Part shown: positions 53,521 through 63,030 of the stretch, piece by piece
How positions within the stretch are numbered: position 1 is the first letter of the stretch
How the letters are laid out: each line of letters begins with the position of its first letter
Assembly: GCF_003116015.1 (NCBI RefSeq)
Contig: NZ_LGQZ01000005.1
Coordinates: 1 to 64,000, forward strand
Length of the DNA: 64,000 bases
DNA from: Azospirillum sp. TSO22-1
Lineage (GTDB): Bacteria > Pseudomonadota > Alphaproteobacteria > Azospirillales > Azospirillaceae
Direction: 5' to 3'
Made by a program: the position numbers and the translations under genes
Notes under the pieces: model-generated
Databases searched by the model: none
The model's input: only the letters and a program-made list of their open reading frames with translations
Told to the model about the DNA's origin: nothing

Positions 53521-53567
53521 TGGCGGACCCGGCGGGATTCGAACCCACGACCTCTGCCTTCGGAGGG
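53521..53567. repeat. Left attachment site of the genomic island (displaced tRNA-Arg 3' end)
   Basis: A 47-bp exact copy of the last 47 bases of tRNA-Arg, including the encoded CCA (TGG at 53521) and the anticodon region (CTTCGGAGGG). It matches 62954-63000. Beyond it the sequence turns AT-rich. Confidence 0.92.
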
Positions 53568-53814
53568 AAAGCAACAACCAAATATTATTGTCAGGATGAC
53601 TTTACATATACCTAGTATACTTTAATTATCAGAAAAATAAATGTAGATGGCGTTAGCGTTTATTCGCAGAAATAGTGGCTAAATTTCCCTTTTCTGCGCG
53701 ATTGAGCGGTATTGATTTGACAATGCTGCATGCGCCTTTCGTGCCCGTTAACCGATACGAGGCGGAAAGCAGGCGCCAGGATTTTTTCTGCACTTCGCCA
53801 GGAGGCGAGTCGCC
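53568..53814. other. AT-rich left end of the island, no gene
   Basis: About 250 bases including a run of A/T near 53580-53650. No supported open frame or hairpin terminator was identified. It may hold integrase arm sites. Confidence 0.5.
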
Positions 53815-54945
53815 TCACTTGGCGGTGGCGCCTTTCTCCTTGGAAGCCCGCTTTGCCTTGGAAGTACTTTTTCTGCCCTTTAGCCCCTTCAGCGCTTCAA
53901 TACCTTCACGGAATGTCCCGCCACCGACTACCGTGGCGAGTGGGATGAAAGCCTCCCACGCTGGTATCCCGCACAAAGAAAGGAACGAAGTCCCAATACC
54001 AAGCATGCCCGTCTTTGCGCCATAGTCAATTACCAGCTTACCATTATCATCGATCCATGACCTAACCTCATCCCCCAGTCTCTTGGCAGTTAGCGCCGCA
54101 AGCGATAGCTTTTCCTCTTTCTTAGACGCAACAACTTCTTTACTAGCCTCCAGCAACGCTGCGTGAATCTGGCGCAAGCCGTCTGCAATGGCGCTCAGGA
54201 AAGATGTATACTGCTCATGAAACTCTAAAGCCTGTGGGTCATTAGGCTTTTTCTCAGCCAGTTCATCAAGGTGCTCGTCAATTGCAAAGGCAAGTGCAGC
54301 AGCCATTGCAGAGACTTCGTTCGACTGGCTGGCGATCTTCTGGCGAATCACCGCTACAGAGGAGGCGGGGGCTGCGGCATCAATTCCAGGCTGAGAGATT
54401 ACCTTTAGCCGTAAAAATTGCTCTGGTCGCTCTTCAGCGTCTGTGATACGCACGAGCTTCCCAAGTTCGACACGGTAAAACCGGAATACATCCTCCTTTG
54501 CGAGTGGGCGAAAGATCGTTGCACCATCAAATAGGGTGTTCGCGTCCGCAAAGGCCCCTTTGAAAGAGGTTCCCTCTTCAAATACTGCATCCCTAAAGTC
54601 CGCGCCGCGGAAATTTACCCGGTCGAAGTTCACTTTTTCAAAGCGGGATCTAGAGAAATTGCTTTTTGAGAAATTAGCCCCCGAAAAATTAACCCCCCAA
54701 TAGCTTGTCGATATACCTTCGGCTTCTGAGAAATCTGCAGAGGCAGCGTCTAATTGCATCATGTGTGCATCTGTCACCTTGGCGCGACGGAAACGCGTGC
54801 CCCGCGCCACAGCTTTCTCCAAATGCGCCCCGATGAAAATTCTAGCGGACAGGTCCATGCCTGACAGGTCAGCTTCGCGCAGATCTGTGTGCGCAAAGTC
54901 AATGTCACCCGCTTGTAGGCGTAGCAATTCTTCTACGTCAGCCAT
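53815..54945 (-). CDS. Pentapeptide-repeat protein with C-terminal helical and hydrophobic domain
   Basis: A 376-residue protein. Residues ~15-145 are pentapeptide repeats (A/N-x-F pattern: DFSEAEG, NFSGANFSKSNFSRSRFEKV, NFDRVNFRGADFRDAVF), forming a right-handed beta-helix. Residues ~150-320 are helical (LDELAEKKPNDPQALEFHEQ). Residues ~325-350 are hydrophobic (LGIGTSFLSLCG, FIPLATVVGGG), and the end is Lys-rich. ATG 54945 follows AAAGGAGG. The layout suits a membrane-acting effector in phage or element defence; function is not known. Confidence 0.75.
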   Translation of the reverse strand: MADVEELLRLQAGDIDFAHTDLREADLSGMDLSARIFIGAHLEKAVARGTRFRRAKVTDAHMMQLDAASADFSEAEGISTSYWGVNFSGANFSKSNFSRSRFEKVNFDRVNFRGADFRDAVFEEGTSFKGAFADANTLFDGATIFRPLAKEDVFRFYRVELGKLVRITDAEERPEQFLRLKVISQPGIDAAAPASSVAVIRQKIASQSNEVSAMAAALAFAIDEHLDELAEKKPNDPQALEFHEQYTSFLSAIADGLRQIHAALLEASKEVVASKKEEKLSLAALTAKRLGDEVRSWIDDNGKLVIDYGAKTGMLGIGTSFLSLCGIPAWEAFIPLATVVGGGTFREGIEALKGLKGRKSTSKAKRASKEKGATAK

Positions 54946-55081
54946 GCGTCCTCCTTTAGGAGGTATGCCGCAAGAGAGATGAGTCGACAAGGATGGATCT
55001 GCACAAGTTCAGCGCTTTTTACCGATCCGTGCGCTGCCTCGCCTGAGGCACAACGTTTGTACCGCGCCTCGCTGCCGCGAT

Positions 55082-55762
55082 TTATGCGCCGATCCGCTCT
55101 AAAAGGTTGGCGACGCTCTGCGGCGCCCACGCTTTGCCGCGCGGTGTAGGAATGCCGCGATCATTCAGCGCCTTGGCAATCCCGCGCACGCTGGTCACGC
55201 CGCTGGCGCGGATCTCACTCACGATAGGCACCAGGTCATTGGCGCGACGGCTCGCCTGTTGCCTGATGACGGTGCTGCCGGCCGCACTGCCCTGGCGCTG
55301 CACCTGAGACAGGTTGCCCCTATCCCCACCCAGTTTGACACCGCGTGCCTTAGCTGCAGCGAGAGCGGCCTTGGTGCGGGCGCTGATATCCCGCGTCTCT
55401 TGCTCTGCGATGGACGCGCGGATGTGCCATTCAAACCGGCTGGCGTGAGGCATGTCGGCCGCAACGAACGGTACGCCGCTTTCCATCAGAGTGGCGATAA
55501 AGGCGACGTTGCGGCTCAGGCGATCCGCCTTGGCGATCAACAGGGTTGCGCCATGAATGCGGCACACCTGAAGGGCTTTGGCGAGTTCGGGCCGGTCCCC
55601 GCGCTTTCCGCTCTCCGTCTCAACGTACTCAGCGATAAGGGTCCAGTTGCCGCCGTTCAGATGATCGGTGACGGCCTTGCGCTGCGCTTCGATGCCAAGG
55701 CCGCTACGCCCCTGACGGGCCGTCGAGACGCGGAGGTAGGTGACGAACTGCCCCTCTGCCAT
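55082..55762 (-). CDS. Serine recombinase (resolvase/invertase family)
   Basis: A 226-residue recombinase with the catalytic Ser13 in [15 protein letters not shown], then [13 protein letters not shown] and [21 protein letters not shown]. The C-terminal part ([20 protein letters not shown]) is a DNA-binding segment like that of longer serine recombinases. It could resolve island multimers or move part of the island on its own. It is a second recombinase besides the tyrosine integrase. Confidence 0.88.
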
Positions 55763-61727: not shown

Positions 61728-62786
61728 ATGCCACGCATCAAACTAGAGATCCCTAACTTCCGCCTCGATCAGAGATCCGATGGCTATTACATCATCCGTT
61801 ACCAAGAGGATGGCAAAACTAAGAATAAGTCTACTGGCACGAAGGACCCGCATGAGGCTGAAAAGGCCCGCGCCCAGTTTGCAATCGACTACATCAAGCC
61901 GCGCCTCACACCCGAGCCGACCATCAGCGAAGTGGTGGACGCTTACATTAAACACCGCACTGGGTCGGTGGCATCCCCAGAGACACTTAACTACGTTTTG
62001 GCCGCGCCAAAGCGCCTGATAGGTAACCTCAAGGCAGAGTCGTTTACCCAGTCCAACGTCGCTGAGTACATCAAGCAGCGCAGCCAAGAGAAGCCCCAAG
62101 CCCGATTCGCTGGACGCTACGGAGGCCGAAACGTCAGCGAAGCTACCATCAACAAGGAGCTTCGTATGATTCGCGCTGCCTTCAACTGGGCGCACGCTGA
62201 GAGGCTGACGGAGCGTAAACCCGAGTTCCGAATTGAACTGTCGTCGGGGAAAGTTAGGGATGAGTGGATTACCAAGGAGCAGGCGAACGCACTTGTGCGC
62301 GAATCGCCTTCCCACTTGGCCCTGTTCATCCTACTCGCTCTATCCACCGCCAAGCGCCGAGAGGCCATCCTAGACCTGAAGTGGGACGACGTTGACCTCA
62401 GCCGCCCCGGCCATGAAGTGCTGCACTTCGGTGAGGACGTGGGGAACAAGAAGCGCGGCTCTACACCCATCGCCGGTAACAAGCGTCTCATTGCAGCACT
62501 GAATGCGGCGAAGGAAAAGGCGGAGACGGACTATGTGATCGAGTGGCGCGGCGAACGGGTCGAGGATGTGAAAACTGCGCTGAGCGGCGCCGCCAAGCGA
62601 GCGGGCATCCCTCATCTTAGCAGCCACGTCCTGAAGCACACTGCGGTTACGTGGATGGTTCAAGCTGGCGTGCCGTTTGAGCGCATCGCCAAGTTCACCA
62701 ACACGTCCAAAGAGGTGATTGAGCGGGTTTACGGGCATCACAGCCCAAGCTTCGTTCAAGAGGCAATTGCAGCCGTCGCATTCTGA
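61728..62786 (+). CDS. Tyrosine-type integrase of the island
   Basis: A 352-residue phage-type integrase: N-terminal arm-binding and SAM-like core-binding domains (about 1-170), then the catalytic domain with Arg210 (STAKRREAIL), His300 and Lys303 in HVLKHTAVTWM (the usual second Arg is Lys), and nucleophile Tyr335 in IERVYGHHSP. It ends 167 bases from the tRNA-Arg CCA end, so it is the enzyme that placed the island. It starts 51 bases after repeats shared with the RHH gene. Confidence 0.92.
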   Translation: MPRIKLEIPNFRLDQRSDGYYIIRYQEDGKTKNKSTGTKDPHEAEKARAQFAIDYIKPRLTPEPTISEVVDAYIKHRTGSVASPETLNYVLAAPKRLIGNLKAESFTQSNVAEYIKQRSQEKPQARFAGRYGGRNVSEATINKELRMIRAAFNWAHAERLTERKPEFRIELSSGKVRDEWITKEQANALVRESPSHLALFILLALSTAKRREAILDLKWDDVDLSRPGHEVLHFGEDVGNKKRGSTPIAGNKRLIAALNAAKEKAETDYVIEWRGERVEDVKTALSGAAKRAGIPHLSSHVLKHTAVTWMVQAGVPFERIAKFTNTSKEVIERVYGHHSPSFVQEAIAAVAF

Positions 62787-62819
62787 CGCCCGTCTCTCGA
62801 TAAGCCATTGAGACATCAG

Positions 62820-62850
62820 AGGGAACAGCTTCGGCTGTTCCCTTTATTTT
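62820..62850 (+). terminator. Rho-independent terminator after the integrase
   Basis: AGGGAACAGC-TTCG-GCTGTTCCCT, a perfect ten-pair stem with a stable TTCG loop, followed by TTATTTT. Confidence 0.92.
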
Positions 62851-62953
62851 CTGGATACGTGCCTATTCTGTATTTGATAGCCGCTTTCTGAGCGGTTTTC
62901 GCCTTAAGCGGCTTTGCGCCACTTCAGAATCACCAGCATTTTCAAGGGGCTGG

Positions 62954-63030
62954 TGGCGGACCCGGCGGGATTCGAACCCACGACCTCTGCCTTCGGAGGG
63001 CAGCGCTCTATCCAGCTGAGCTACGGGTCC
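62954..63030 (-). tRNA. tRNA-Arg (anticodon CCG)
   Basis: A 77-nt cloverleaf on the minus strand: GGACCC/GGGTCC acceptor stem, D arm with AGCTCAGCTGGATAGAGC, anticodon loop CTCCGAA, T arm with GGTTCGAATCC and encoded CCA. The last 47 bases are the right attachment site of the island (62954-63000), identical to 53521-53567. The island's copy of the 3' end keeps the gene intact. Confidence 0.95.

Follow-up and report, generated by a model that had tools for sequence, protein, structure and literature searches.

What kind of mobile DNA occupies the block of low guanine-plus-cytosine (GC) content beside a tRNA-Arg gene in Azospirillum sp. TSO22-1, and is it the phage satellite that it resembles at first sight? 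The block spans positions 53521-63000 of a 64,000-nucleotide stretch (contig NZ_LGQZ01000005.1, positions 1 to 64,000; hereafter the window) in a 7.35-Mb draft genome of 250 contigs. The initial annotation had described it as a satellite-like element of an undescribed type that carries defence cargo. Our analysis leads elsewhere: the island is probably an integrative plasmid-like element of Azospirillum, i.e. a cryptic integrated mobile element, and its putative replication protein and serine recombinase have their relatives on plasmids.

The boundaries of the island are set by the following features:

53521..53567, no strand: distal attachment site, an exact 47-bp copy of the 3' part of tRNA-Arg (repeat search)
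62954..63000, no strand: tRNA-side attachment site, 47 bp, inside the intact tRNA (repeat search)
62954..63030, minus strand: tRNA-Arg(CCG), intact (tRNA call)
61728..62786, plus strand: tyrosine integrase, 352 amino acids, adjoining the tRNA (PF00589, 2.6e-14; phrog_1, 5.3e-44)

The two 47-bp copies form an exact direct repeat whose unit is the 3' 47 bases of the tRNA gene, and such a match cannot be chance. The GC content of the block is 0.581 versus 0.703 in bases 1-53520 of the window. The repeat, the integrase next to an intact tRNA and the lower GC had all been correctly recognized in the initial annotation. About 9.4 kb lie between the repeats and hold six main genes, all of them open frames in the list of open reading frames of the window. 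A vertical chromosomal history of these genes was rejected on the basis of the tRNA-derived repeat, the low GC and the absence of a close copy from 60 relatives. Judged from its sequence, the island is a genuine integrated mobile element bringing its own predicted replication protein.

Sixteen frames of the element were scanned with Pfam and seven of these also with PHROGs. None of the 16 frames scored above cut-off for a capsid, terminase, relaxase or conjugation family, as had been claimed for capsid and conjugation genes. Of the proposed gene set, the integrase, the serine recombinase and the pentapeptide-repeat protein exceeded the Pfam cut-offs, whereas the ribbon-helix-helix (RHH) protein, the HNH protein and the large primase-helicase stayed below them.

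The largest gene and its surroundings are as follows:

57079..57526, no strand: short-repeat stretch upstream of the replicase gene, candidate origin region (repeat searches)
57320..57337, plus strand: 18-bp repeat with a 14-bp perfect palindrome, copy 1
57527..61285, plus strand: primase-helicase (replicase), 1252 amino acids, with an AEP-like primase at residues ~1-256 and an SF2 helicase at ~410-1070
61315..61332, plus strand: 18-bp repeat, copy 2, directly after the replicase gene
61397..61424, plus strand: terminator-like inverted repeat followed by a T-rich stretch

No Pfam domain above cut-off was found in the primase-helicase; its PHROGs match is phrog_16950 (1.7e-6, residues 114-239). 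The AEP-like part contains D118, D120, S160, H172, D203 and R233. In an alignment of eight N-terminal primase domains (A3), D118, D120, S160, G163, D203 and R233 are invariant in all eight rows, so that the acidic residues of motifs I and III of the PrimPol-PV1 AEP supergroup (D118, D120, D203) are present, as is the motif IV arginine after motif III (R233), which would be the structural flange arginine. Position 172 of motif II is histidine in five of the eight rows, the window included, and arginine in three; according to the available part of PMC5862659, PV1 families have His, Gln or Tyr here, and Arg or Lys is found in the DR0530-like family. The predicted N-terminal motifs fit AEP motifs I-IV as set out in that part of the paper. 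A fold model of the AEP domain from two sequences was weak (mean pLDDT, the predicted local distance difference test score, of 44) and gave no PDB match at E≤0.001, and a PDB search with the AEP profile likewise returned no matches.

The helicase part carries GxGK at residues 422-425, DE at 579-580 and cysteines at 498, 519, 527 and 533. The cysteines were followed in alignment A2, whose 15 rows are the 19 rows of A1 minus L023, L025, L026 and L036, and they are kept in every row having the position (C498, C519 and C527 in 13/13, C533 in 14/14). Four cysteines between the Walker motifs recall the XPD/DinG iron-sulfur helicases; the sole support seen for this comparison was a weak DEAD_2 match in a related protein, L157 (E 0.058, below cut-off). 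With the helicase profile, the top PDB matches were to the nucleotide-binding part of Mfd and other SF2 enzymes.

The exact 18-bp repeats flank the replicase gene 3,995 bp apart. They might serve as an operator or for recombination, or might mark the edge of a nested replicon sized near a 4,170-bp plasmid described below. Their palindromic 14-mer is present in just 3 of 61 genomes, and it occurs elsewhere in L175, a stretch with an integrase, and in L176, near a repressor-like gene. Around other helicase or AEP genes, the search for repeats of this type gave only two 12-bp matches, in L031, which we took as chance.

The kinship of the island proteins was assessed against 72,556 plasmid and 50,697 phage records. 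Relatives of the primase-helicase were found in 24 plasmid and 0 phage records (E≤1e-5). One of them is the sole annotated gene of JX202564.1, a circular plasmid of an uncultured bacterium of 4,170 bp, in a version with a TOPRIM primase. The five plasmids with relatives that were opened have no PLSDB replicon type and, in the parts shown, no other annotated replication initiator; the replicon-type result is weak because the gene tables are incomplete and one record is shown in part. The genome of the island has one copy of the primase-helicase, a protein above 35% identity is absent from the 60 other genomes searched, and matches, some to the primase domain alone, occur in 10 of the 60 relatives and, in a class sample, in 8 of 288 further genomes. 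A profile search at E≤1e-10 found matches in 19 of 81 other genomes of the order, again some to the primase domain alone. L030, with a weak match to the single protein and no profile hit, was left out.

The same helicase is joined to different primases. It carries an AEP primase in the window, L037, L035, L031, L157, L158 and L162, a TOPRIM primase in L038 and L039 (and, below cut-off, L029) and a PF09250 primase in L032; the helicase part alone was seen in others, e.g. L022. Such exchange is undescribed in the titles and abstract openings surveyed, a sample with few papers in full and subscription papers mostly outside it. We tentatively consider it possible that free plasmids and tRNA-integrated elements share an undescribed replicon family, defined by the four-Cys SF2 helicase, in which AEP, TOPRIM and PF09250 primases would be swapped on a constant helicase responsible for origin recognition or opening. 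A pattern scan for close primase-helicase relatives found none in genome contigs and none in viral contigs, and a search of viral contigs with helicase subgroup A4 also gave none. The corresponding search with AEP subgroup A5 gave one match, L166 (G023:C40), a 30,851-bp IMG/VR contig in which an AEP domain of this type is joined to another partner, a different C-terminal part. As a separate observation, L163 (G033:C55) and L164 (G012:C8) each hold a distant helicase relative and, several kb off, another protein that the AEP profile matches weakly.

The second protein of plasmid character is the following:

55082..55762, minus strand: small serine recombinase (plasmid-type resolvase), 226 amino acids (PF00239, 1.3e-24)

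At E≤1e-30 its relatives are in 64 plasmid records and in none of the phage records. Three of these plasmids, picked for their small size (5.8, 7.3 and 10 kb), each have Rep and a ParA-like gene, and two of the three have an annotated RHH gene. The small alphaproteobacterial plasmids pMaD11 and pP18_i share the serine recombinase family with the island, as JX202564.1 shares the primase-helicase family; unlike the island, all three are free circles with no tyrosine integrase annotated, and pMaD11 and pP18_i have a different annotated replication protein. Seven of 22 helicase loci have a serine recombinase at most 6 kb away from the helicase gene, versus 0.33 expected and 0 of 16 control loci (12 with an integrase hit; L121, L124, L126 and L176 without). 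Three of these seven hits arise by construction, the profile having been trained on the window, L028 and L036, and the background density comes from 80 PF00239 matches in 11 genomes, seven of which were picked for having such a gene. The excess is suggestive of a partnership, and only suggestive, because mobile DNA is generally richer in recombinases.

Related elements also appear to be mobile. In a search for exact matches of at least 17 bp (15 for the round with G030 and G009) within the fetched stretches, which degenerate or distant repeats escape, 6 of 20 helicase loci had attachment-like repeats on both sides of the helicase gene. The sites are tRNA-Arg in the window, tRNA-Val in L034, tRNA-Glu in L161, tRNA-Phe in G030 and G009, and a protein gene in L028, where the site is the 5' part of a HAD-phosphatase-like gene as read from the translation. 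An 18-bp GC-rich repeat in L159 was treated as chance. The repeat-bracketed elements measure 9.4 to 19.6 kb, and 11 of 22 helicase loci have an integrase no more than 6 kb from the helicase gene. Loci with an AEP domain and another partner have such repeats in two of four cases (L025 at tRNA-Glu, L033 at tRNA-Lys). The two tRNA-Phe elements, in G030 and in G009, match over ~10.8 kb with 95.5-96.3% identity up to the tRNA 5' end, a boundary that recent movement would be expected to leave. Their cargo is unlike, an LmuB-like ATPase in one and type I restriction genes in the other, and the G030 element encodes a KfrA_N-like protein (plasmid type) just under cut-off.

A second partial copy starting at the tRNA-Arg 3' end was found in at least 9 of 36 same-genus genomes, some copies being on other contigs; these genomes include G003, G005, G012, G020, G021, G023, G026, G029 and G036. 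An integrase gene adjoins tRNA-Arg in G003, G005, G012, G020 and G036, and a short frame does so in G002. The islands at tRNA-Arg in these congeners differ in content. In L117 (G005:C32, 1618-10605), a ~9-kb island between two tRNA-Arg calls encodes an LmuB-like ATPase and a 446-residue PADLOC-family protein. On G003:C1, three tRNA-Arg 3' ends in the same orientation (positions 316023, 331091 and 380475) suggest two tandem islands at one tRNA.

These properties place the island within a published group. Class (iii) of PMC5862659, in the part of that paper available, comprises cryptic integrated elements with PrimPol-PV1 primases and covers the island, in which we found attachment repeats, an integrase and an AEP gene, and no phage or conjugation genes in the 16 frames. 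The island is thus a variant within a known class, and calling it an undescribed type was too strong, since tRNA-integrated cryptic elements with AEP-helicase proteins are on record there. The nearest examples are the all3500-like ones, with an AEP fused to an SF2/UL9-like helicase as in the island; the elements of that class also have attachment repeats, often in tRNA genes, and some are without phage or conjugation genes. The accessible text of PMC5862659 makes no mention of the four-Cys core and, unlike the elements it describes, the island-type helicase also occurs with TOPRIM or PF09250 primases and, near some, a plasmid-type serine resolvase.

The remaining genes and sites near the integrase are:

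61441..61599, minus strand: RHH protein, 52 amino acids from the likely start; the frame opens at 61677 (Arc-like PHROG, 1.9e-4 with the long frame)
61602..61620, plus strand: 19-bp repeat between the RHH and integrase genes, copy 1, a putative operator or arm site, largely kept in G012
61655..61673, plus strand: 19-bp repeat, copy 2, largely kept in G012

The RHH frame has 78 codons, and the ATG at 61599 is the likelier start. The protein matches RHH_1 at 0.039, below the Pfam cut-off. The closest integrase, 75% identical, is in G012, also at tRNA-Arg, and the neighbouring RHH protein there shares 80% identity across 65 residues of the long frame. In the same genome a single-protein search with the primase-helicase gave no match, and the profile found a distant one on another contig. 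Since G012 keeps both genes at tRNA-Arg and its distant helicase lies on another contig, integrase and RHH protein look like a module recurring with other cargo, with this one relative as the basis.

Two genes at the distal side would be cargo:

53815..54990, minus strand: pentapeptide-repeat protein, 391 amino acids, cargo (PF00805, 1.6e-18)
56182..57078, minus strand: HNH protein, 298 amino acids, with a McrA-like HNH in the C-terminal third (PDB McrA chains 5zmm, 0.0019, and 6ghc, 0.005)

The HNH protein matches PADLOC mREase_IV (4.8e-5 over residues 223-260) and, below the Pfam cut-off, HNH_2 (0.36); a structure model of the protein alone reached a pLDDT of 31. A 68% identical relative lies in Azospirillum melinis (L167), in a region that looks like a prophage as read from its frames, and one plasmid record gave a 31% match. 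The pentapeptide protein had no plasmid matches at E≤1e-15. A role of both proteins as defence cargo, as first proposed, is plausible given the McrA-like HNH and the presence, in two related elements, of an LmuB-like ATPase or of type I restriction genes.

Several observations weigh against a plasmid-like element. The integrase has relatives in 181 phage records at E≤1e-5 (all below 60% identity) versus four plasmid records at E≤1e-20, limits that differ. The plasmid relatives of the primase-helicase are distant, with at most 31.5% identity, that over 15% of the query, and the phage primase family phrog_16950 is matched by the primase domain in 4 of 15 family members. The serine recombinase matches the phage DNA-invertase family phrog_125 (4.8e-28), so its plasmid-versus-phage contrast is one of degree. 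The best Pfam match of the 52-residue RHH protein is the NikA mobilisation protein (0.0031, below cut-off), so it may have a role in mobilisation. No match to the DnaA-box consensus was found in the element, where the origin is only a candidate, and no convincing repeat was found in 14 of the 20 helicase loci. In a joined-flank search for the empty site, alignments in relatives reached at most ~8 bp into the left flank; an empty site could not be demonstrated because the flanks of relatives differ. Finally, the mobile-element PrimPol of Thermus ICETh2 is dispensable for replication of the element, according to the available part of PMC7693054.

Of the alternatives, a minimal phage satellite, with integrase, regulator and primase only and packaged by a helper phage as PICMIs are in Vibrio, is the likeliest, although we regard it as unlikely. 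It would account for the phage relatives of the integrase, for a small DNA-binding protein and a phage-related primase, and for cargo that could act on phages. PICIs are marked by a gene set of their own and by helper-phage induction; no capsid or terminase family was among the Pfam or PHROGs matches of the island frames. For the other satellites, membership was judged on marker domains from the accessible portions of PMC10803314 and PMC8628076, with Sid (a custom profile) outside the test. PICMIs, like the island, have few genes, with an integrase, a small regulator and a primase (int, alpA, prim), and manage without a capsid-remodelling gene (PMC10803314, in part). However, of int, AlpA, the DUF3987/DUF5906 primase and the fis site, the island has int alone in the 16 frames; it lies at tRNA-Arg and adds a resolvase, an HNH and a pentapeptide protein. 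P4-like satellites share an integrase and a primase-helicase with it (PMC8628076, in part), but Psu, delta, epsilon, AlpA and the PF03288 alpha protein were absent by Pfam from the 16 frames, the integrase being the only P4 marker there, and the layout is unlike P4 as initially noted. As far as the available text of both papers goes, the P4 and PICMI models count a serine recombinase only as integrase, while the island has a tyrosine integrase too. Because the replicase and resolvase relatives are plasmid-borne, with none turning up in the phage records at the thresholds applied, and because genes for morphogenesis or helper control were not seen, the satellite label of the initial annotation is unsupported.

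We find it quite improbable that a larger conjugative element or prophage decayed or was cut down to the present island and can no longer move. Transfer and virion genes were not seen, the island was never seen excised, and two gaps of more than 400 bp separate main genes (55763-56181 and 57079-57526); on the other hand, the main frames are all open, the tRNA and the repeat are perfect, and similar-sized elements with related genes sit at other sites. Least credible of all is a primase-helicase acting as a defence or DNA-uptake barrier instead of a replicase, which would recall the dispensable ICETh2 primase-polymerase, whose loss raised transformation (PMC7693054, in part), for the title of PMC9751324 names loss-of-function addAB mutations for such a deletion strain, which weakens the Thermus case, a relative is the sole annotated gene of the 4.17-kb circular plasmid, the family recurs with resolvases, and the PADLOC matches span just ~40-50 residues around the Walker A motif.

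For an integrative plasmid-like element, we infer excision, replication and transfer. The integrase would have joined a circular form to the 3' part of tRNA-Arg, and the tRNA stays intact because the element supplies its own copy of that part. The two 19-bp sites are probably where the RHH protein binds, and it may control or direct excision. After excision the primase-helicase would open and prime the circle for copying by a host polymerase, as its domains and relatives suggest, and the serine recombinase, by analogy with its plasmid relatives, would resolve circle multimers. The HNH and pentapeptide proteins would travel as cargo, possibly directed against incoming DNA. Since no transfer machinery of its own was found, the element probably travels by another vehicle. 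In SCCmec, an operon encodes primase and helicase as two proteins, and mobility depends on serine recombinases, whereas the island has one fused protein and a tyrosine integrase. Both are integrating elements with their own primase and helicase (PMC7581432, in the part available).

If this reading is correct, one compact replicase of its own could be enough for a plasmid of 4 kb, or for a chromosomal element of 9 kb, to copy itself. The replicase family would make the conversion of a plasmid into a genomic island, and the swapping of primases on one helicase, open to experimental test. It would also be a caution that small integrase-plus-primase islands are not all phage satellites.

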